Part shown: positions 6,001 to 25,758 of the stretch, piece after piece
Numbering within the stretch: position 1 is the stretch's first letter
Layout: each line of letters opens with the position of its first letter
Source of the DNA: a virus
Length of the DNA stretch: 28,254 nt
Reading direction: 5' to 3' (one strand)
IMG/VR virus record: IMGVR_UViG_3300032242_001654
Coordinates: 1-28,254 of that record
Made by a program: the position numbers and the translations under genes
The notes under the pieces: model-generated
Seen by the model: the letters and a program-made list of their open reading frames with translations, nothing else
Database searches by the model: none
Told to the model about the DNA's origin: nothing

Positions 6001-6447
6001 GCGTCTACTAGTGAATTAGTGGTAGATACCCCTATACTATTCAGACAAGTAGGAATACCAATTGGAAGTGTTTCAGCAGGTGGTATGGTAGTAGGAGCTA
6101 TATATTATGTAAAAGAAATATTAAGCCCGACAGAATTTACTATATCCGCTACCTTAGGTGGGTCATTATTTGGATTAAGTACCAGTTCAGTTACTATTAA
6201 CGTAACAGAGTTCCAACAAATTGATGTTGATAGACTTTGGGTAACAGTAAATGGATATAGAGTAGCATCTTCATCTTTATATTTGAACCCAGGAAATGAG
6301 CTAAGTATTCTTACTAAGGTTGAGGCAAACCAAGAAGTGATAATTACTAATATGATACCAAACGCTACACCTAATAAACTGAAGTACTTGTTAAATGTAA
6401 ACCAGTTAAATTACGGGTCTGTTTATAGAGGAACTACGCAATCATGA
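1..6447 (+). CDS. Giant repeat-built phage structural (tail/baseplate-type) protein, 5'-partial
   Basis: The frame is open from base 1, so the N-terminus lies outside the window; at least 2148 residues are present. It begins with a LSGLSRG-type module (about residues 9-32) also found in the next gene. About eleven divergent copies of a 70-100 residue module follow, each with a core like YYVKxI-S-x-T-x-FTIS followed by a LxTATG-like strand (YYV cores near residues 167, 361, 464, 582, 717, 843, 1068, 1468, 1629, 1861 and 2034). A GNFIVGxTYxIVSxGTT segment occurs twice, near 515 and 1550. An APEELV segment near 1260 and a region near 1720 reading IVEINGLRQ then [10 protein letters not shown] resemble modules of large T4-like marine phage tail proteins. 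No enzyme motif is visible. Virion role is inferred from composition, repeats and neighbours; exact location in the particle is unknown. A TTG at 82 is not a believable start because the frame continues upstream. Confidence 0.85.
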
Positions 6448-7814
6448 GTCAAAATTTAGTTTCTTCTTCTACTACTTGGTTAACTGAACCATTGACTATT
6501 ACTGATAATACCATTTATGTAGCCTCAGTTAATAATATCACTAATACCACGGTACAAAACGTAACGGCACCTGTAGCGGTTTCAGGAGTAATGAGTATTG
6601 GGTTAAATGCCGATAAAAATTCTATTGTTAATATTGTAGTTTATAATAACACTACCAGTGCAATAATTTCAAGTTCACATTACAGCATAGTGATAGAAAA
6701 CACAGCTCCTATATTAAAAATAACAACAGGTGCTTGGGTCGCAACGGGGAATTCTTTAACTATTACTACTATAAATGGTAATTTAATTTATATCAATGGT
6801 GAACAGATAAAATTTAGTTCAGTGAATACTACGGATAACACGTTGAGTGGTTTATCTCGTGGGCAGTATGGAACCGGAGTACAGGATTTAATACCACTGT
6901 ATACTGAAGTTTGGGGCCTGTTACTAAAAAATAAAATGAATAATGCAGGATACGTGCATACTTGGAACAGTTATAACTATAATACGACCTTAGGAGATCC
7001 TCTGCAAATTAGTACTACCCCTGAGGCTCTATTTTTAACTAACAACAAGTATATAGCACCCTTTCCTGTTATATCACCTTTCCCACAAACCACAACTTCT
7101 ACTACTACAATTGCTCCTCCTACAAGCACTACTAGTACAACATCAACTTCAACGTCTACTACATCAACCACTTCAACATCAACTTCAACATCTACTACAT
7201 CAACATCAACAACAAGTACATCAACATCAACAACATCAACCACTACTTCAGGACCAACAACTACGACTACATCTACAACAGCAGCACCTACTACATCAAC
7301 CACATCTACTTCTACATCAACCACATCTACCTCAACCTCAACAACGTCTACATCTACGACGACCGCAGCAGGCCCAAGTCTAGTGTTTAATAATAGTGAT
7401 CCGTTTGATTATGTTAATGATTTGCCTGGATCTTTATCTGTGTCTACTGATTGGATTTTTGATGCCGACGGTAATGTAAATGGTACAAGTTCTTTTGATA
7501 CAGCGCAGCTTTCAGGACCAACTCAATATCTAAGCCCTGTCACCGCTGGTGCAGGATCAGGATATGAAATAAAGGTTACTCTTACTAATGGTGTGTCTAT
7601 CCCATCAGTATTTAGGATAAATGGAGTAACTATTGGAAATGGCGGCACATCGGCATACTATGGATTAACCAGCGGTATTACTATAAATTATACATTAAGT
7701 GATCCTAGTAATATTGGGTTTACTAGAACCGCTACCGGTACAGTCTATGTTAGAAATACCTCTACACTCACTGAGATATCTAGAGCATTTACCATAGTAT
7801 TGAACTCTGCTTAA
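6444..7814 (+). CDS. Fibre-like virion protein with long Thr/Ser mucin-like linker
   Basis: The ATG overlaps the previous stop (ATGA), implying translational coupling. The protein has 456 residues in three parts. Residues 1-213 contain an INGEQIKF then [12 protein letters not shown] module related to the start of the upstream giant protein. Residues about 214-310 are almost only Thr and Ser, with rare Pro, Ala and Gly. Residues about 311-456 form a beta-rich domain ([47 protein letters not shown]) that is duplicated at the C-terminus of the gene ending at 12042. The linker is encoded by ACA/TCA/ACT/TCT-rich, slippage-prone DNA at 7085-7374. The Thr/Ser tract could be an extended stalk and a possible O-glycosylation target. 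A fibre or decoration role is inferred from domain style and context. Confidence 0.85.
7085..7374 (+). repeat. Low-complexity Thr/Ser codon tract (mucin-like linker)
   Basis: About 290 bases made almost entirely of ACA, ACT, TCA and TCT codons with ACATCAACN-like internal periodicity. It encodes the Thr/Ser linker of the surrounding gene. Shorter, more Thr-pure tracts occur at about 10820-10945, 11445-11600, 13068-13118 and 13746-13785 in the two later fibre genes. Confidence 0.85.
7382..7814 (+). repeat. Duplicated C-terminal fibre domain, copy 1
   Basis: Encodes the approximately 145-residue C-terminal domain that recurs at 11611-12042. The two copies align end to end in protein, and a 39-base stretch (7647-7685 versus 11875-11913) is identical in DNA. 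This points to recent domain copying or gene conversion between fibre genes. Confidence 0.85.
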
Positions 7815-9882: not shown

Positions 9883-12042
9883 ATGACCTATGCACAGTAT
9901 GGAAAAATTCAAGCTACTGATTATAATGTTACCTTAGTTGGCGCAAATATAAGCAATGTTGCAAATAAGTTAAACACAGTATGGTCAGTAGGTAACAATA
10001 ATGCTGGGTATGGTCAAACAGCGGTAGGCAATGTTACCGTAGGAAATAAGGTCGATAATACCGAGTGGGATAATTTAATTAATACCACTGCAAACGTAGC
10101 CACTCAACAAAATTCCAGTATCACTAGTGTTACACCTCCTGTAGCAGGAGACAAGATAACATATACTTCTGCTATTCCAACAAACTTAACAACCATTTAT
10201 ACAAATAGGTTGAATGCTGCTAGCCAAGGATCTACTACTTCAGTTGATACTGTATACGGTAGTACTTGGGACAATGGACTACTATTCACCCAAACTGCAA
10301 CTTTTGCTAATGGTGATGCAGCCAGATACTTTTTTAATGCAGGTGGACAACTTGGTATTTCATGTTCACACCCCACAGGACCAAATGCTAATGCAACAAT
10401 AAGCACCTTAGCTAGTGATGTTGGTAATATTTTTCTAAGCTCGCCTATATCAGGTACCGCCACAATCGCAGGTACATCATATACTGGAATCACTAAAGTG
10501 GGCGGCGGTGGATCTTCTAGTATATCTACCAATACAGGTTACTACGCATTAACTACCAGTAACGCTACAATTTTAACACAAACATCAACTATTGATAGCA
10601 GTACTATTGTAATAGCGACGAAATCTAACGGGACTCAAGGGTCATATAATGATGCGGGCAGCGTTATAACATTTTATACAACATGGCAAGAATCTCCAAA
10701 TGGTATTGAAGCTACCGCAGGGACAACTACTCGGATATCAGCTAAATACCCATCTACTTCAATTCTTGCTAATACATGGGGTACGGTATCATTGTCAGGT
10801 TCGGTAAGTTCATTGGGCCCAGCCCCTACAACTACTACTACAGCAGGACCAACTACAACAACAACTACTATACCAGGAACTACAACAACTTCTACTACTA
10901 CAGCAGGACCAACTACAACTACCACGACAACTACATCTTCAGGTACAGCTGGATTTACAGGTTCTCCATCAGGAGCACCATATGATTATGAAAATACAAC
11001 TGGCAACGACCCTCCTTCAGCATCTACTTCTATTGATTTAAATTTCACTAATCAAGGCGTTGTGTCAACTTTTGACACTACTGGAAATCCTCCCGAAATT
11101 AATAATGTTCCTACACAGTGGTTTACTCCTACTGGTGGCGGAATTGGCGGTAGTTATGATATAAGAATAACTTCAATGAGCGGTACATGCACTGGTGGTA
11201 GCCGAGCATATTATAATATATTTGGTGCAGGAAATACAGGTATCAATCCAAACACATTTACAACGCCAACCGCATGGTATTCGTTAGCTTCCACTCAAAC
11301 AGTAAAAGTTGGTATAGGAAGCGCACCTATTGTAGGATGTGGTACAGCACTTACGTTTGATGTAGAAATAGCGCCTAGTGGTGATCATAGTAGTCCTATT
11401 ACAGGTAACTTTACACTAGTTATAGGTCAAGTTACTCCGACACCACCGGCAAGTACTACCACTACCACTACAACATCAGGTCCAACAACTACTACAACTA
11501 CTACAACTACTGAAGCTCCGACTACCACAACAACCACAGTAGGCCCAACAACTACTACAACTACTACTCTATCACCTACAACTACGACAACAACGGGAGC
11601 TGGTCCTTCATTAGATTTTAATAGTTTAGCCGACTTCTCTTATAATAATGATAACCCTGGTGGAAGTACTGCAACATTAGATTGGACATTTGATGCTGAT
11701 GGTAACATTATTTACGCAGGTGAAACTGCTAGTCAAATCTCTGGATCAACGGCATATTTAAGTCCTATAACGACTGGTGCAGGATCAGGATTTGAGATTA
11801 AGGTTACTCTTACTACCGGTATATCTCTCGCATCTGCGTTTACTATAAATGGAATAAATGTTGGAAATGGCGGAACATCGGCATACTATGGATTAACCAG
11901 CGGTATTACTATATCATATGCTCTTAGTGATCCTAGTAACCTTGGACTTACTAGAACCGCTATAGGTACTGTATATGTTAGAAATACTTCAACTCTTACA
12001 GAAATATCTAGAGCATTTACTATTGTGTGTAACACTATATAA
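9883..12042 (+). CDS. Modular fibre protein with two Thr-rich linkers
   Basis: A 719-residue protein. Residues 1-310 form a module (MTYAQY start, GYGQTAVGNV near 42, WDN near 64, FANGDAARYFFNAGGQL near 140, GITKVGGGG near 202, TFYTTWQE near 264) that is clearly paralogous to the first 315 residues of the gene at 12122. A Thr-rich linker (about 312-353) leads to a middle beta-type domain (355-518). A second Thr-rich linker (519-573) leads to a C-terminal domain (575-719) that nearly duplicates the end of the gene at 6444. The build suggests a fibre or decoration protein with exchangeable tips on glycan-prone stalks. No clear Shine-Dalgarno site is seen in the nine-base gap before the ATG. Receptor binding is inference. 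Confidence 0.85.
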   Translation: MTYAQYGKIQATDYNVTLVGANISNVANKLNTVWSVGNNNAGYGQTAVGNVTVGNKVDNTEWDNLINTTANVATQQNSSITSVTPPVAGDKITYTSAIPTNLTTIYTNRLNAASQGSTTSVDTVYGSTWDNGLLFTQTATFANGDAARYFFNAGGQLGISCSHPTGPNANATISTLASDVGNIFLSSPISGTATIAGTSYTGITKVGGGGSSSISTNTGYYALTTSNATILTQTSTIDSSTIVIATKSNGTQGSYNDAGSVITFYTTWQESPNGIEATAGTTTRISAKYPSTSILANTWGTVSLSGSVSSLGPAPTTTTTAGPTTTTTTIPGTTTTSTTTAGPTTTTTTTTSSGTAGFTGSPSGAPYDYENTTGNDPPSASTSIDLNFTNQGVVSTFDTTGNPPEINNVPTQWFTPTGGGIGGSYDIRITSMSGTCTGGSRAYYNIFGAGNTGINPNTFTTPTAWYSLASTQTVKVGIGSAPIVGCGTALTFDVEIAPSGDHSSPITGNFTLVIGQVTPTPPASTTTTTTTSGPTTTTTTTTTEAPTTTTTTVGPTTTTTTTLSPTTTTTTGAGPSLDFNSLADFSYNNDNPGGSTATLDWTFDADGNIIYAGETASQISGSTAYLSPITTGAGSGFEIKVTLTTGISLASAFTINGINVGNGGTSAYYGLTSGITISYALSDPSNLGLTRTAIGTVYVRNTSTLTEISRAFTIVCNTI
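11611..12042 (+). repeat. Duplicated C-terminal fibre domain, copy 2
   Basis: Second copy of the domain at 7382-7814, with closely matching protein ([46 protein letters not shown]) and a 39-base identical block at 11875-11913. Confidence 0.85.
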
Positions 12043-12121: not shown

Positions 12122-14221
12122 ATGACCTATGCACAGTACAATTCTATAACAGCCTCTGATTTCAATAGCTTAGTTGGTAATAACCCTAGTGGTCAATTTT
12201 ATGAAGGATCACTCAACCAAGTGTGGGCTATTGGCAACGGTAGGGCTGGTTATGGCCAAACTGCGGTATCAAATGTTGCTATAGGTAATACGGTCGGTAA
12301 TCTAGAATGGGATAGTCTAATTAACCTTACCGCAACTGCGGCAGCTCATCAAGGTTCGACTATTACTAGTGTTACCGCACCCTCTACAGGAAATACAATC
12401 GCTTATCTTTCTGGGGTTACAAACAATTTAGCTACAATTTATAATAATCGCCTTAATGCTGTAGCACAAGGTACTACTGCCTCTAACACTATTACCAATG
12501 CCAGTACTTGGACGAATAATTTAGTATTCACTCAGTCAGCATATTTTGCAAATGGTGATGCGGCTAGATACTTTTTTAATGCAGGTGGACAGTTAGTTAT
12601 CACTTGTTCTCATCCAACAGGTACCGCGGTCGACAATGTTTTTCATGGTTTAGCAGCAAACATCGGTAACGTTACATTAAGTTCTACCACAGGGGGTACA
12701 ATAACTATTGCTGGTAATTCATTTAGTGGGATTACTAAAGTAGGAGGAGGTGGTCAAACACCTACTATAATGGCTGACGATGGTTATTATGCATTGAGTG
12801 CTGGTAACGCAAACGTCTTTACACAAATTGATGGTGTAGATGCTACCTTTAGTGCTAGTTATATTAATATTCAAGTTAAAACTAATGGTACTGTGGGTAC
12901 ACACGGTGACGTAGGAAATACTGTTACATTTTACACAACTTGGCAAGAAGTACCTTCGGGAACTACAGTAGCAGCAGGTACAACAACTACTCTAACCGCT
13001 ATATTCCCATCAACTGGTAATATCGCAAACACTTGGGGTGCAATAAGTTTTACAGGACCACCTTCACCTATTACTACTACCACTACATCTACCACTAGTA
13101 CAACAACTGTTCCACCTACATTAGATTATGTATATACTGTACCGGGATCTTATAGTTTATCTCCGATACCCGGGTATCCTTATCTTACACTAACAATGGT
13201 TGGTGGAGGTGGTGGAGGCGGTGGCAATGATGGTTATGGCGATACTCGTGCAGGTGGTGGTGGTGGTTCCGGAGGTTACTCCTCTTTAATACTAAACACT
13301 ACCGGCACTGTTGGTAGTTTTGCTATAACTGTTGGTGCTGGAGGAACTCCTGCAAACGTAACCTTCAATGGTATAGCATATCCAGGTATCCCCAGTATAC
13401 CTAGAACAGGTACAAAGAGTGGATACAGTGGTGGTCAATCTTCACTGGTCTATAGTTTAGGAAATTATGGCGCTGGTGGCGGAGATGGTGGTATTGGTAA
13501 TACAGGTGACAATGGTGATGGTGTTGGCGGCGCAGGTGGTACAGGTATAACTACTCCAGGTAATGCTGGTGTTACTCCTATTACTGACAGAAACATTTAT
13601 GTAGCGGCAGCAGGTGGAGCTAGTGTATTTGGTGGTTATGGCGCAGGTGGAGCTAGCCAAAATAGTAACTTTGGTACTAATTTAAATGCTGACTTGCCGC
13701 AACCCGGTGGGAATGGTTATGTAAGATTGCAATTCTCTAGTACTATGCCTACTACAACAACCACTACAACAACCACAGCAGCACCAGTTGGCACTATTAA
13801 TACTGCACTATTTACCTACTTAACAAGTAGTTCTTTTTATGCATCATCTTATGGTCCTACCGCCGGCGCATATCTAACTTTTTATAATTCTGGTGCTTTT
13901 GCAATCATTGATCAAAACGCAGTTAGTTTAACGGATGGTGCACCTAATCATGCTTATTGGATCAGTGGAGCTGTAAATCCAGGTAGTAGTTATTGGGTAA
14001 GATTTACTCAAACTGCTGTATTTGGCTATACTACATCTCCCTCAACCGGCTGGCTTTGGTTACAAGCAGACCAAACGATTTATGTTGAAAATGCCTATAA
14101 TGGAACTACAGATTCAACCTATACTATAGAAATCTCAACCAATAGTTCAGGTACTAACATTGTGGCAACAAGTACAGGTGTGTTCTTATCTGCAACACAA
14201 TATATTGTTCCAGGAATCTGA
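12122..14221 (+). CDS. Modular fibre protein with polyglycine-rich domain and Thr linkers
   Basis: A 699-residue paralogue of the preceding gene. Residues 1-315 carry the same N-terminal module (MTYAQY, GYGQTAV, FANGDAARYFFNAGGQL, GITKVGGGG, TFYTTWQE). After a short Thr/Ser linker (316-332), residues 333-541 form a glycine-rich domain with a run of eight Gly near 360 and many GAGG and GGxGG stretches, resembling glycine-rich receptor-binding domains of some phage adhesins (analogy only). A second Thr linker (542-555) leads to a distinct C-terminal domain (556-699) ending in SATQYIVPGI. Sharing an N-terminal module with different distal domains suggests a common attachment part with variable tips. 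Receptor specificity cannot be read from the sequence. Confidence 0.85.
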   Translation: MTYAQYNSITASDFNSLVGNNPSGQFYEGSLNQVWAIGNGRAGYGQTAVSNVAIGNTVGNLEWDSLINLTATAAAHQGSTITSVTAPSTGNTIAYLSGVTNNLATIYNNRLNAVAQGTTASNTITNASTWTNNLVFTQSAYFANGDAARYFFNAGGQLVITCSHPTGTAVDNVFHGLAANIGNVTLSSTTGGTITIAGNSFSGITKVGGGGQTPTIMADDGYYALSAGNANVFTQIDGVDATFSASYINIQVKTNGTVGTHGDVGNTVTFYTTWQEVPSGTTVAAGTTTTLTAIFPSTGNIANTWGAISFTGPPSPITTTTTSTTSTTTVPPTLDYVYTVPGSYSLSPIPGYPYLTLTMVGGGGGGGGNDGYGDTRAGGGGGSGGYSSLILNTTGTVGSFAITVGAGGTPANVTFNGIAYPGIPSIPRTGTKSGYSGGQSSLVYSLGNYGAGGGDGGIGNTGDNGDGVGGAGGTGITTPGNAGVTPITDRNIYVAAAGGASVFGGYGAGGASQNSNFGTNLNADLPQPGGNGYVRLQFSSTMPTTTTTTTTTAAPVGTINTALFTYLTSSSFYASSYGPTAGAYLTFYNSGAFAIIDQNAVSLTDGAPNHAYWISGAVNPGSSYWVRFTQTAVFGYTTSPSTGWLWLQADQTIYVENAYNGTTDSTYTIEISTNSSGTNIVATSTGVFLSATQYIVPGI

Positions 14222-15280: not shown

Positions 15281-15598
15281 ATGCGAGCAAAAATTTTAGC
15301 CAGTATATTATTCTTGTTACCTTTAAGTGCCTTGGCTCAACATCATCATGGATTCCATCCAGGATTTTATCGTCCATATTATGGACCAAATTGGGGTTGG
15401 GTTGCACCTGCGGTTATTGGTGGTGCTGTAGTATATGGACTAACTCGCCCTGCTCCTGTAGTAGTTCAACAGCCAGTCTATATTCAGCAACCTGTTGTTG
15501 TAGATCAGCCACAGGTTGTATATATTGATGGAATAGCGTATACTAAACAAGTTATGATAGTTAATGGTGTATCACAAGAAGTGTTGATACGCCAGTAA
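15281..15598 (+). CDS. Small secreted His/Pro/Val-rich envelope-type protein
   Basis: A 105-residue protein with a strong AAGGAG site. Residues 1-19 form a classical signal peptide with a likely cut after SALA (A19/Q20). The mature protein starts with a His-rich stretch (QHHHGFHPGF), then an aromatic/Pro segment, a short hydrophobic Gly-rich stretch WVAPAVIGGAVVYGL (about 45-59), and a Val/Gln/Pro repeat (VVVQQPVYIQQPVVV). This resembles small exported proteins common in proteobacterial genomes rather than a virion part, so it may be a host-derived accessory gene acting in the periplasm or outer envelope. The function is unknown. It has its own late promoter candidate and is followed by the tmRNA gene. 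Confidence 0.75.
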   Translation: MRAKILASILFLLPLSALAQHHHGFHPGFYRPYYGPNWGWVAPAVIGGAVVYGLTRPAPVVVQQPVYIQQPVVVDQPQVVYIDGIAYTKQVMIVNGVSQEVLIRQ

Positions 15599-15612
15599 AG
15601 TATTGTTGTAAA
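15584..15612 (+). promoter_or_regulatory. Possible sigma70 promoter for the tmRNA gene
   Basis: TTGATA (15584-15589), a 17-base spacer, then TGTAAA (15607-15612). This is a moderate match that overlaps the end of the preceding gene and would start RNA near 15619, just before the acceptor half of the tmRNA. Confidence 0.35.
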
Positions 15613-15853
15613 AACCGCAAGGAAAGAAGCAAGTCCAAAGACGAGCAAGACGCGGGTTCGATTCCCGCCGGTTCCAAATCAGGGGGACCGACATGGTATC
15701 GATTGACGGGTGAGTAGATGAGTGGACAACACGATAGGCGATGGACGTAATCCAAGCAAAAACGATAATCGCAAATGATGATTATTTCGGAGAAGTGCGC
15801 CTCGCAGCGTGACCTTCGCGGAGTAGGAAAGACTCTGTAAAATAACCAACCTG
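15611..15853 (+). ncRNA. ssrA: Circularly permuted (two-piece type) tmRNA
   Basis: The tRNA-like end is split and reversed in order. First comes the 3' (acceptor) part: a T-arm with a five-pair stem (15652-15656 with 15664-15668) around TTCGATT, then the acceptor strand CGGTTCC (15669-15675) and discriminator A15676. After only seven bases (AATCAGG) comes the 5' part: GGGACCG (15684-15690), which pairs fully with CGGTTCC (one G-U), followed by a GATTGACGGG element like the conserved UUCGACGGG of tmRNAs. The tag frame starts at GCA 15771 and ends at TGA 15810-15812, encoding ANDDYFGEVRLAA; the bases just before it (GCAAAAACGATAATC) resemble the E. coli resume-codon context. A candidate helix P2 is TGGAC 15723-15727 with GTCCA 15633-15637. 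CCA is not encoded. The outer ends are approximate. Role: rescue of stalled ribosomes and tagging of their products for proteolysis. Confidence 0.85.
15771..15812 (+). other. tmRNA tag-peptide reading frame
   Basis: The resume codon GCA and 12 more codons encode ANDDYFGEVRLAA, followed by TGA. It starts AND and ends LAA like proteobacterial degradation tags (E. coli ANDENYALAA), so products should be recognised by ClpXP-type proteases of the host (inference). Confidence 0.8.
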
Positions 15854-15890
15854 TAATAGGCTCGCAAGGGCCTATTATTTTGTTGTTTTT
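15854..15890 (+). terminator. Rho-independent terminator after the tmRNA
   Basis: A perfect eight-pair stem TAATAGGC (15854-15861) / GCCTATTA (15870-15877) with an eight-base loop, followed by TTTTGTTGTTTTT. Confidence 0.85.
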
Positions 15891-15908
15891 CCGCAACAGA
15901 TCCGAAAA

Positions 15909-22563: not shown

Positions 22564-23031
22564 ATGTGGATATTATCTGTTCTACCTGATTACGCTATAC
22601 ATGGTTTATTAACTGTTGGTATTATTGGTGTAATTCTAGGCTTTGTATTAGGGTTTATACCATTTGTTGGTAAGTATAAACTACCCATTCAAATCATCAG
22701 TATATTCATACTAACACTTGCCTTATACTTAGAAGGTGGGTTAGAAAATGAACGGCTATGGCAATTGAAAGTAAAAGAAGTACAAGCCAAAGTTGCTGTA
22801 TCAGAAACCAAAGCGGTAGAAAAAACAGTAGAAATACAAGAAAAAATTGTAAACAAGACTAAGATAATTAAACAAAAAGGCGATGATATAATACAATATA
22901 TTGATAGAGATATAGTTAAAAAAGAAGAGATTATCAAGTACATAGAAAATTGCCCAGTGCCACAGGAAATAATTGAGCAACACAACAAAGTTATAAATTT
23001 AACTAATCAATCTTCGGGAGAGAAGAAATGA
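22564..23031 (+). CDS. Inner-membrane spanin-like protein (Rz-like)
   Basis: A 155-residue protein with two predicted membrane segments (about 7-35 and 41-58), then a long charged, probably coiled-coil region (about 62-130) rich in Lys, Glu, Ile and Val, ending with a short Pro-bearing stretch. This fits an i-spanin, except that typical Rz has one N-terminal membrane segment rather than two. The stop overlaps the start of a lipoprotein gene (ATGA), the usual i-spanin/o-spanin arrangement. Spanins fuse the inner and outer membranes in the last step of lysis of Gram-negative hosts. No Shine-Dalgarno site precedes the ATG. Confidence 0.7.
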   Translation: MWILSVLPDYAIHGLLTVGIIGVILGFVLGFIPFVGKYKLPIQIISIFILTLALYLEGGLENERLWQLKVKEVQAKVAVSETKAVEKTVEIQEKIVNKTKIIKQKGDDIIQYIDRDIVKKEEIIKYIENCPVPQEIIEQHNKVINLTNQSSGEKK

Positions 23032-23303
23032 AAAAGTTAATTCCATTAGTATTATTATTGTCAGCTTGTGCTACTACGCCTGTTCCAATAGAGCGTAAAT
23101 TTCCTCCATATCCTAACGCATTGTCAGAAAAATGCGAACCACTAAAGCCGATTGAACCTACTGATAAAGTTCCTATTACAGATATGTTAAAGGTAGTGGT
23201 AGAAAACTATGTAGTATACTACAACTGTGCTACCAAGGTTGAGGGTTGGCAAGAATGGTACATTGAACAGAAGAAAATCTTTGAAAGTGTAAATGAAAAA
23301 TAA
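23028..23303 (+). CDS. Outer-membrane spanin-like lipoprotein (Rz1-like)
   Basis: A 91-residue protein with a lipoprotein signal: KKLIPLVLLLSAC, lipobox LSAC with Cys14. The mature part begins Pro-rich (TTPVPIERKFPPYP) and is short, as expected for an o-spanin that reaches across the periplasm to bind the partner encoded just upstream. Two further Cys (about residues 36 and 66) may form a disulfide. GGAGAG shortly before the ATG provides a ribosome site inside the preceding gene. Assignment rests on the lipobox, length and gene pair. Confidence 0.75.
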   Translation: MKKLIPLVLLLSACATTPVPIERKFPPYPNALSEKCEPLKPIEPTDKVPITDMLKVVVENYVVYYNCATKVEGWQEWYIEQKKIFESVNEK

Positions 23304-23333: not shown

Positions 23334-23873
23334 ATGTCTACACAAGAAATCATTAATATAGGTACGTCGCCCAACGATGGTCAAGGTGATCCACTACGCA
23401 CAGCATTTGCAAAGATAAACAATAATTTTACCAGTTTATTTAATACTACCTTTAGTGCGTCTACCGCATACTCTTTGGGTAATTCAGCAAATCAAGTAAT
23501 ATATACCGCACCTGTTGAAACTTTTACGCAGGCTATGCTTCAAATTAGATCAAGTAACCCACTAACATCAGACAGCCAAGATATTACACTTTCAGCACAA
23601 ATTACAAATGATAATGCTAGTGTAAGATTTACGGGCTATGGTACTACTATCAATGGTAATGCTATAACCAATTATGATATGGATGTTTTTGATTCTAACG
23701 TTCGTGTACTAGTTAATCCATTAGTAAACGCTACATTGTTACATTTTATTTCATCTCAAGTGACTTTCATTGGTACACAAGTCCCTGGCTTAAACATTCA
23801 ACTAGATGGTTATGTACCAGGATATGACATGTCTACCGAAACTGACTTGTTTATAACCACAGAGCAGGCATGA
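23334..23873 (+). CDS. T4-like virion structural protein
   Basis: A 179-residue protein whose N-terminus IINIGTSPNDGQGDPLRTAF, followed by AKINNNF, is a hallmark start of structural proteins in T4-like marine and freshwater phages. The rest is beta-rich (DITLSAQITNDNASVRFTGY, LLHFISSQVTFIG). No enzyme motif is visible. It ends in an ATGA overlap with the first of three tandem leader-bearing genes, so it may be co-expressed with them from the late promoter at 23306. Confidence 0.8.
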   Translation: MSTQEIINIGTSPNDGQGDPLRTAFAKINNNFTSLFNTTFSASTAYSLGNSANQVIYTAPVETFTQAMLQIRSSNPLTSDSQDITLSAQITNDNASVRFTGYGTTINGNAITNYDMDVFDSNVRVLVNPLVNATLLHFISSQVTFIGTQVPGLNIQLDGYVPGYDMSTETDLFITTEQA

Positions 23874-24271
23874 GAGCAAAAGAATTTATAAACGAATCAG
23901 TGAGCCTCGGGCATACTGGTAGTTTACAGCAAGACATTGCATTGGCATTGCCCGGTGCATGGAAAATTCCTGCACTTAAAAATCAAGATCCGTATTTACA
24001 ATATCGTTTTGGTGTTGCGATTGCAGGTGCTAAAGGTGCTCACCAACGCAAATTAGATGGCGTTCCTCCTTTTGAAGAAGATAAAGTATTTGGTGAAAAT
24101 GAATTTGTAGTTAGTTATGATCCACGTACAGGTGAATATATCCGTGACGCATTAGTATCTATGGGATTAAAAGCTAGTGATGCTGTGCAAATTGCTACCA
24201 TGGCAAGTCAAGAAATGCCTGATGTAGTAAAAACAAGCCCAATTAAAGGCTTTAAAGGATACTCAAGATGA
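23870..24271 (+). CDS. Internal-head-protein-like paralogue 1 (leader MRAKEFINE)
   Basis: A 133-residue basic/mixed protein. The N-terminus MRAKEFINE resembles the T4 internal-protein capsid-targeting leader MKTYQEFIAE, which the prohead protease gp21 cuts after (L/I)-x-E; the equivalent cut here would follow E9. The body has YLQYRFGVAIAGA near 44 and SYDPRTGEYIRDALVSMG near 81, both with counterparts in the next two genes, and the C-terminus is SPIKGFKGYSR. The gene overlaps both neighbours by ATGA. Packaging in the head and injection are inferred from the leader only. A decoration or capsid-accessory protein processed by the same protease is the main alternative. Confidence 0.7.
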   Translation: MRAKEFINESVSLGHTGSLQQDIALALPGAWKIPALKNQDPYLQYRFGVAIAGAKGAHQRKLDGVPPFEEDKVFGENEFVVSYDPRTGEYIRDALVSMGLKASDAVQIATMASQEMPDVVKTSPIKGFKGYSR

Positions 24272-24639
24272 GAGCGTATGAGTTTTTAACTGAAGGTGAA
24301 GGAAAACCACATCCCCATCATGCACAAGCATCACTTGGTGTATTCAAAGCCCGTGATGTTGGTGGATATGATAGGATATACCATATGAATCGTCTTTGGA
24401 TGGCTATGGCAATGGCTGATGGCAAGAGTCAGGATGCCGTAGAAATGGATAATGCTAGCTTTGCTGAAAAATATAATACGGTTCATCCATATACAGAAGA
24501 AGAATATAATATGTATGTTTCGGCAACAAAAACTATTCCAACTGATAAAAAAGATGTTGTTCCTTATTCCAAGAGCAAAGAACCTGAGGATACAAATACC
24601 AAGAGTCTAGTAAAACCTTTTAAGGGCTATACAAGATGA
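24268..24639 (+). CDS. Internal-head-protein-like paralogue 2 (leader MRAYEFLTE)
   Basis: A 123-residue protein. The leader MRAYEFLTE ends in L-T-E, the best match of the three to the T4 gp21 cleavage rule. The next part is His-rich (HPHHAQASLG). Counterparts of the sister genes are YHMNRLWMAMAMAD near 38, VHPYTEEEYNMYVSATKTI near 72 and EPEDTNTKSLVKPFKGYTR at the end. The ribosome site appears to be AAAGGA, which lies inside the FKGY codons of the preceding gene. It most likely arose by tandem duplication with strong divergence. Function unknown. Confidence 0.7.
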   Translation: MRAYEFLTEGEGKPHPHHAQASLGVFKARDVGGYDRIYHMNRLWMAMAMADGKSQDAVEMDNASFAEKYNTVHPYTEEEYNMYVSATKTIPTDKKDVVPYSKSKEPEDTNTKSLVKPFKGYTR

Positions 24640-25016
24640 GAGCCATAGAATTTGTTATCGAAACCAAAAAAGCTAAAGTGCCAAAAGAACAAATAGCAAC
24701 ATGGAGCAATACATCTACACTACCAAATCATAATATGTACCATGGTAGTGGATATTTGCATTCACAGTTTATAAAAGCATTAGCTGGTGCAGGTGCCGGA
24801 GATACTCCTGATGCAGATATGGGTAAAGAAAATTTTGCAGGTGGAGATCCTATAGTCACTCCTTATCATCCTATAGAAGAAGAAATGATAGATCGTGCTA
24901 ATAAGGCAATTGGTGATAATAATAGAAAAAAATGGGGAACTAGAGATAGCCGTGAGCCTGAGGATACACACAAAGTTAGTCCTCATAAGCCATTTAAGGG
25001 CTACAAAAGAAAATAA
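24636..25016 (+). CDS. Internal-head-protein-like paralogue 3 (leader MRAIEFVIE)
   Basis: A 126-residue protein. The leader MRAIEFVIE has Val in place of the I/L at the cleavage motif, so processing is less certain than in the two sisters. The body shows GYLHSQFIKALAGAGAGD near 47 and VTPYHPIEEEMIDRANKAIG near 75; the end REPEDTHKVSPHKPFKGYKRK is the most basic of the three. It closes the array. The FKGY end is kept even though no gene overlaps it downstream, so that motif is not explained only by a ribosome site for a following gene. Confidence 0.7.
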   Translation: MRAIEFVIETKKAKVPKEQIATWSNTSTLPNHNMYHGSGYLHSQFIKALAGAGAGDTPDADMGKENFAGGDPIVTPYHPIEEEMIDRANKAIGDNNRKKWGTRDSREPEDTHKVSPHKPFKGYKRK

Positions 25017-25068: not shown

Positions 25069-25758
25069 ATGATTGATATTAATAACACACTAGACCTAGT
25101 AAAACTAAAGTTTTACAATGACTACCTCTATCAATGCCACATCTATGATGAGGGCGAAAGTGGGTACCATAAACAGCTTACAGGCGAAATGGTAAAAAAT
25201 TATGTTGATCCGTTAAATCTAGCCAAAGATGCTTTAATCTTAGATTTAGGCTGTGGTCCGGGCTATTTCCTAGATGAAATGAAATCCAGAGGTTATACCA
25301 ATCTAGTTGGTGTTACTCTTAGTCCCAACGATGTTAAAATGTGCGAAGATAAAGGTCATACTATTAAAAAATACGACTTGTCGTTTTTGCCACAAGAACA
25401 GGGTTACTATGATGAAAGTGTGGACTTTATATTTCTTAGACATGCATTAGAGCATAGTCCATATCCAATATTCACATTAATGGAATATAATAGAGTATTA
25501 AAACAAAATAGTAAGATTTATATTGAGGTGCCTGCTCCTGATTGCGATAGAAAGCACGAATATAACTTGAATCATTATAGTATCTTTGGTGCTGCACAAT
25601 TGGCCGCACTACTTGAGCGTACTGGTTTCAATGTCAATACCTTTAATAATTTAGAATTTGATTTAGAAATACCCGGCGATAACGGTGAAACCGCTCCAGT
25701 TAAAGAAAGGTTTTTTTGTATAGTTGCTACTAAAGCTAGGCCGCTAGACATTAAATAA
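25069..25758 (+). CDS. SAM-dependent methyltransferase (class I)
   Basis: A 229-residue protein of the small Methyltransf_11/23 style. Motif I is ILDLGCGPGYF (57-67), followed by a candidate acidic ribose-binding region, then DFIFLRHALEHSPYP near 121 (motif IV-like with RHALEH typical of small-molecule or sugar methylases) and a C-terminal beta strand ending FFCIVATKA. No DNA-methylase target domain or NPPY/PC motif is present, so a metabolite, sugar or protein substrate is more likely than DNA. It may modify virion glycans along with the distant glycosyltransferase (speculative). Only a weak AAGG site is seen, next to the palindrome. Confidence 0.8.
   Translation: MIDINNTLDLVKLKFYNDYLYQCHIYDEGESGYHKQLTGEMVKNYVDPLNLAKDALILDLGCGPGYFLDEMKSRGYTNLVGVTLSPNDVKMCEDKGHTIKKYDLSFLPQEQGYYDESVDFIFLRHALEHSPYPIFTLMEYNRVLKQNSKIYIEVPAPDCDRKHEYNLNHYSIFGAAQLAALLERTGFNVNTFNNLEFDLEIPGDNGETAPVKERFFCIVATKARPLDIK

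Follow-up and report, generated by a model that had tools for sequence, protein, structure and literature searches.

In our study, three tandem genes (P1, P2 and P3) of a T4-like phage were found to share the nine-residue leader MRAxEF[ILV]xE and, judging from sequence comparison, they probably encode internal head proteins which carry this leader as a capsid-targeting signal, are cleaved and packaged, and are injected to act early on the host. The neighbouring genes suggest that P1-P3 would be synthesized late, and the leader would then tether each new protein to the core of the prohead. The S77 (gp21-type) prohead protease would cut the leader after E9 at [ILV]xE, and the mature proteins of 114-124 residues would stay among the packaged DNA and be ejected with it. 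Their most likely role at the start of infection would be that of small protein-binding inhibitors directed at host defence, or else of host-takeover factors. The analogy with T4 Ip1-3 makes an anti-host effector role plausible, and defence systems as the targets of the array proteins are put forward tentatively on the same analogy. Features of the leader itself stand against the explanation. Position 4 of the leader is variable here, though targeting by the T4 capsid-targeting sequence (CTS) depends on residue 4, which is aromatic in T4, and P3 has V where the T4 sites have L or I. If the explanation is true, the array genes, which are otherwise without annotation, gain a place in the infection cycle.

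The array, its relatives and its genomic site

The window (the whole stretch of 28,254 nucleotides that was analysed) is a 28 kb fragment of a T4-like phage, without head genes. The ORF coordinates have confirmed the three tandem reading frames with the leaders MRAKEFINE, MRAYEFLTE and MRAIEFVIE that the initial annotation had placed there, and these overlap as ATGA, each start lying on the previous stop (Table 1). The leader DNA pattern (MRAxEF[hydrophobic]xE) occurs three times in the window, compared with 0.00 in 100 dinucleotide shuffles. The three proteins had also been described as paralogous through their length, and this holds, as the other two share 25% and 31% identity with P1 over the full length and the P1-type and P2-type families match with 99.8% probability over 125 columns in a profile-profile comparison, a score to which the shared leader and tail add. 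Chance convergence as the source of this kinship was ruled out by the same comparison. A C-terminal block, SxExxDxxxxSPxxxFKGYxR, which the initial annotation did not mention, is common to P1, P2 and P3; its conservation is limited to array proteins, and it could serve as a second signal or a DNA-binding tail, or could belong to the fold.

Table 1. Features of the array and its conserved neighbours in the window
Feature	Position	Strand	Remarks
Rz-like spanin candidate, conserved upstream neighbour	22564..23031	+	weak Rz match; 82 array loci
Rz1-like lipoprotein spanin candidate, conserved upstream neighbour	23028..23303	+	90 array loci
Short protein with T4 gp9/10-like N-terminus, conserved upstream neighbour	23334..23873	+	stop overlaps P1 start; 100 of 152 array loci
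P1, 133 aa, array protein, family F1	23870..24271	+	>70 distinct relatives in viral contigs; leader and FKGY tail
P1 leader MRAKEFINE, predicted cut after E9	23870..23896	+	R2, A3, F6 and E9 invariant in 59 aligned family members
P1 C-terminal motif FKGYSR	24251..24268	+	
P2, 123 aa, array protein, family F0	24268..24639	+	
P2 leader MRAYEFLTE	24268..24294	+	R2, A3, E5, F6 and E9 invariant in 48 aligned family members
P2 C-terminal motif FKGYTR	24619..24636	+	
P3, 126 aa, array protein, family F9	24636..25016	+	different leader on orthologues in another phage group
P3 leader MRAIEFVIE	24636..24662	+	cleavage motif has V in place of L/I at its P3 position
P3 C-terminal motif FKGYKRK	24993..25013	+	
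Class I SAM methyltransferase, conserved downstream neighbour	25069..25758	+	Methyltransf_23, 4.5e-18; 97 array loci

The array proteins had further been called strongly diverged, which is true between the paralogues but not of the P2 orthologues, often 75-87% identical between contigs. The array is therefore not hypervariable in sequence, and its variable aspect is found in which cassettes are present and in their order. The fetched loci hold one to five array genes, which belong to about ten related families and are arranged in many ways (F1-F0, F0-F1, F0-F7-F2-F5, F2-F1, F1-F0-F9 and F0-F9-F1 among those seen), and in one locus (L121) an unrelated, DUF6321-type body with the array leader is located within the array.

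P1 and P2 are each encoded in more than 100 stretches in IMG/VR. No match to either was obtained by tblastn in 50,697 phage records, and P2 was not found in the GTDB genomes. Pfam and PHROGs gave nothing usable for P1-P3, nor did PHROGs for 59 members of the array family, and a profile search of solved structures returned chance-level matches only. AlphaFold modelled two array proteins with intermediate confidence (mean pLDDT 71 and 73, pTM 0.39 and 0.41), with pLDDT values of 45-48 in the leader compared with about 75-85 over much of the core. As the Foldseek search of these models against BFVD and PDB has given no match at E <= 0.001, no fold is claimed for the array proteins, and an effector function gains no support from fold similarity.

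The site of the array is fixed, with the spanin genes and the gp9/10-like gene upstream in 82-100 and the methyltransferase gene downstream in 97 of 152 array loci, which are to be taken as loci and not as independent phages due to overlaps between contigs and searches. Around the array, the window encodes gp9/10-like proteins, spanin candidates, thymidylate synthase and a MoxR/VWA pair. No T4 late promoter (TATAAATA) was found correctly placed near the array, and one is present in the window against 5.3 expected. Elsewhere in the window, ARAGORN predicts a permuted-type phage tmRNA gene at 15586-15903 with the tag ANDDYFGEVRLAA, and tail-fibre-like ORFs with long Thr/Ser repeats are present at 6444-7814, 9883-12042 and 12122-14221.

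The leader on unrelated bodies and the phages that carry it

In 59 P1-type and 48 P2-type sequences, leader positions 1, 2, 3, 5, 6 and 9 are 99-100% conserved, compared with 34-43% for the two variable leader positions, 36-46% for the next 11 residues and 60-63% for the core. The synonymous codons of the leader vary freely, which indicates that selection acts on the peptide. The leader pattern was found 40 times in 18 large relatives, and the reversed pattern 0 times. About 10 of these 40 matches are located off the array on unrelated bodies, namely GNAT with ART-PolyVal, GH19, LRV-repeat, DUF6321 and several without a Pfam match. Further, a scan of viral contigs by leader DNA alone, and thus independent of the body, has identified at least 120 stretches; when E and F were exchanged in the pattern as a control, 19 matches were obtained across the whole viral collection.

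After removal of the first twelve residues, 378 leader proteins fell into 39 clusters (any overlap) or 64 (50% mutual coverage), of which 39 is a working figure and not a count of folds, as BLAST clustering can split distant relatives. DUF6267, ParB_N-like proteins and ADP-ribosyltransferases were also found among the bodies with the MRA leader. Taken over all leader types, the leader-bearing ADP-ribosyltransferases are of the ART-PolyVal type, of the ADPrib_exo_Tox type or of an unclassified family with a YHYT motif. A mixed array away from the P1-P3 site (L194:2025-4443) has kinase-like, unknown and GH19 leader proteins in tandem with ATGA-type overlaps. Moreover, a WSxKYKxSINCSxPKGFSQxAHCxGKKK module and the string QGVAE are present inside several otherwise different leader proteins (L197:2957-4036, L261:8805-9308, L060:788-1309), possibly as a mobile internal segment.

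The S77 (gp21-type) prohead protease is encoded in 12 of the 18 large array contigs. Among 34 leader contigs of 30-345 kb, many of which are fragments, it was found in four, all of them longer than 190 kb. Four shorter S77-negative leader contigs encode T4-type DNA polymerase, sheath and baseplate proteins, which were recognised by eye. The non-leader neighbours have homologues in T4-like jumbo phages at 74 of 79 leader loci vs 1 of 19 control loci, a result which is expected in part because the reference set includes loci around arrays. On sequence grounds, the S77-negative leader contigs are likely fragments of T4-like phages, and the leader appears to be confined to a T4-like clade whose large contigs mostly encode S77. 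An early concern, that some leader-bearing phages lack S77, is weakened, and not removed, by the T4-type proteins seen by eye and by the neighbour result. The major capsid protein of the leader-bearing genomes has LLAE-SSAG where T4 gp23 is cut, a placement made by analogy.

Comparison with known systems and alternative explanations

The CTS of T4 has ten residues; targeting depends on residues 4 and 7, and residues 8 and 10 are needed in processing (PMC9026906). It is the sole conserved part of the T-even internal proteins (PMC3012670). T4 Ip1, Ip2 and Ip3 differ in the GmrSD enzymes that they inhibit (PMC12373910), an activity not common to all ip genes. The start MKTYQEFIAE, which had been given for IPI, IPII and IPIII alike, is correct for IPII and IPIII and wrong for IPI, which starts MKTFKEFTSTTTPVSTITE (MKTFKEFTS...ITE). 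As in the T4 internal proteins, a short N-terminal leader of about ten residues with the core EF[I/L/V]xE is common to otherwise diverged proteins, and the EFIxE found here matches the EFIAE of IPII and IPIII. The phages likewise appear to be of a clade whose large contigs mostly encode a gp21-type protease, and ipII and ipIII are adjacent in T4, comparable to the tandem array.

On the other hand, the leader is one residue shorter than the CTS and lacks an aromatic residue at position 4, which here is mostly R, K, S or H, whereas the F at position 7 of T4 is kept as position 6. The INE of P1 and the LTE of P2 fit the T4 cleavage motif [L/I]-x-E whereas P3 has VIE, and in 364 leader reads, unweighted for relatedness, position 7 is I in 209, L in 81 and V in 62. 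The bodies are unrelated to those of T4 by profile search, and the conserved C-terminal FKGYxR block, the tandem ATGA-overlapping paralogue cassettes and the presence of the leader on dozens of other bodies are further differences from T4. Due to the missing aromatic residue and the absence of detectable body similarity, the array is considered to work like the T4 system and is not filed as a member of it. The capsid-targeting role first proposed for the leader finds good support in the comparative evidence (at least 39 body clusters, the T4-like clade, S77 in most large contigs and leader exchange on an orthologous body). The system appears to be of the T4-internal-protein kind and much wider than the array first suggested.

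T4 Alt is an injected ADP-ribosyltransferase, and several leader bearers, which are other genes and not those of the array, are ADP-ribosyltransferases as well. The propeptide of Alt is described in the literature as seven residues long and differs from the leader. The packaging of polyvalent ARTs and GNATs was predicted independently (Iyer et al. 2017, PMC5512222), and in one leader-bearing protein (L193) ART-PolyVal and GNAT are combined in one polypeptide as in polyvalent proteins. In contrast to these, most leader bearers are short proteins of one or two domains, and P1-P3 (123-133 aa) have no Pfam domain or other recognisable domain, whereas polyvalent proteins have at least two disparate catalytic domains. 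The paralogues gp53 and gp54 of SPN3US (PMC5694885) are similar in that both are head proteins which have diverged strongly but start with the same 15 residues, in which there is a protease motif; they differ in belonging to a phiKZ-type phage, in their A-x-E motif and long propeptides, and in forming a pair with no general tag.

Packaged and cleaved internal head proteins could also serve DNA packing, core size or ejection, with no action on the host. A housekeeping virion role of this type would fit the good conservation of the P2-type proteins between contigs (many 75-87%) and the syntenic array site, and the FKGYxR tail is basic, which recalls the T4 internal proteins, whose lysines contact DNA (PMC3012670). 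It is nevertheless unlikely, as the cassettes come, go and change their order (one to five genes, about ten families) and the other leader bearers include catalytic domains (GH19, ART, GNAT, NUDIX) in place of structural folds.

The position of the array after a gp9/10-like gene, within the tail-fibre/baseplate region, and the GH19 enzymes, which could be tail lysozymes, may point to a leader that sends the proteins to the baseplate, tail tube or another virion part instead of the head core. Such a destination is improbable, since the core EFIxE is that of the T4 head internal proteins, gp21 cleaves at the motif [ILV]xE (PMC9026906) and the capsid protein of these phages has LLAE where such a site is expected; moreover, the T4 ip genes likewise do not lie beside head genes. 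It is very improbable that the leader acts as an intracellular signal unrelated to virions, in replication or membrane recruitment or as a degron or translation signal. Many leader bearers are indeed enzymes able to work within the infected cell, but the leader matches the core of the T4 CTS, the upstream neighbours are virion and lysis genes, and leaders of a second, MKI type are present in PA5oct on proteins annotated by MS as belonging to the virion. A DNA or RNA signal is excluded by the synonymous variation in the leader.

Leader exchange and the second leader type

An orthologue of P3 from another phage group, 56% identical, starts with MKITEIINE and its paralogues with MKIKDIITE and MKINEIVTE, and these MKI-leader relatives of P3 have different basic tails. 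The exchange of the leader on one body suggests that the packaging tags evolve with the core and the protease of each phage group. Of 12 large MRA-type contigs searched, 10 lack the MKI-type pattern (MKIxEIIxE-like), the other two being G008, which is mixed, and G007, where it is present once. The MKI leader was also found on NUDIX and ADPrib_exo_Tox bodies, a kinase-like body occurs with both MRA and MKI leaders, and four body clusters hold both leader types. One ART body starts with MRANEFLIE in one phage and with MKSTEFLTE in another, and is leaderless in Dickeya phage JA13. As a separate observation, one genome that is otherwise of the MRA type encodes an MKI-type protein (MKITEIVVE, L201:1538-1954) two genes downstream of its capsid gene.

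For the T4-like aquatic jumbo phages, we consider it an even chance that short, clade-specific and exchangeable leaders form a general packaging code, which would make dozens of unrelated proteins head-borne injected effectors, together with a second, C-terminal and clade-specific signal on the array proteins (FKGYxR; other basic tails with the MKI leader). The proposed cargo comprises peptidoglycan hydrolases, ADP-ribosyltransferases, acetyltransferases, NUDIX, kinase-like and ligase-like proteins and the array family. If this is true, a nine-residue motif would list from sequence the predicted injected proteome of many uncultured T4-like phages, which is otherwise known solely through virion proteomics of a few isolates, and many candidate effectors, enzymes included, would be nominated.

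The MKI-type pattern is present three times in PA5oct, and two of the three bearers (MKINDIITE and VKIKDILVE) are annotated as detected by ESI-MS/MS, a fraction which alone is not significant as 93 of the 443 PA5oct genes are MS-positive. A leader motif was found in 4 of the 93 MS-detected proteins vs 2 of the 350 others (p = 0.019; p = 0.13 for a broader motif), and this enrichment is no more than suggestive since the motif was written after seeing the list. The MR/MK..EF form of the leader was found in none of Phosso, 2.275.O, GAP32 and PA5oct. Three adjacent minus-strand genes of PA5oct (MK797984.1, 260677-262300; L337) start with VRLNEINLIE, MKILEFNLTE and MKLSEICILE, of which the first two are annotated ESI-MS/MS, and this trio has the look of a comparable leader array in an isolate. 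In Pseudomonas phage Lu11 (L421:1025-2358), the N-terminus [MV]KIQLAVA is common to two adjacent ART-like proteins, which are divergent thereafter, and it is possibly the leader of another clade.
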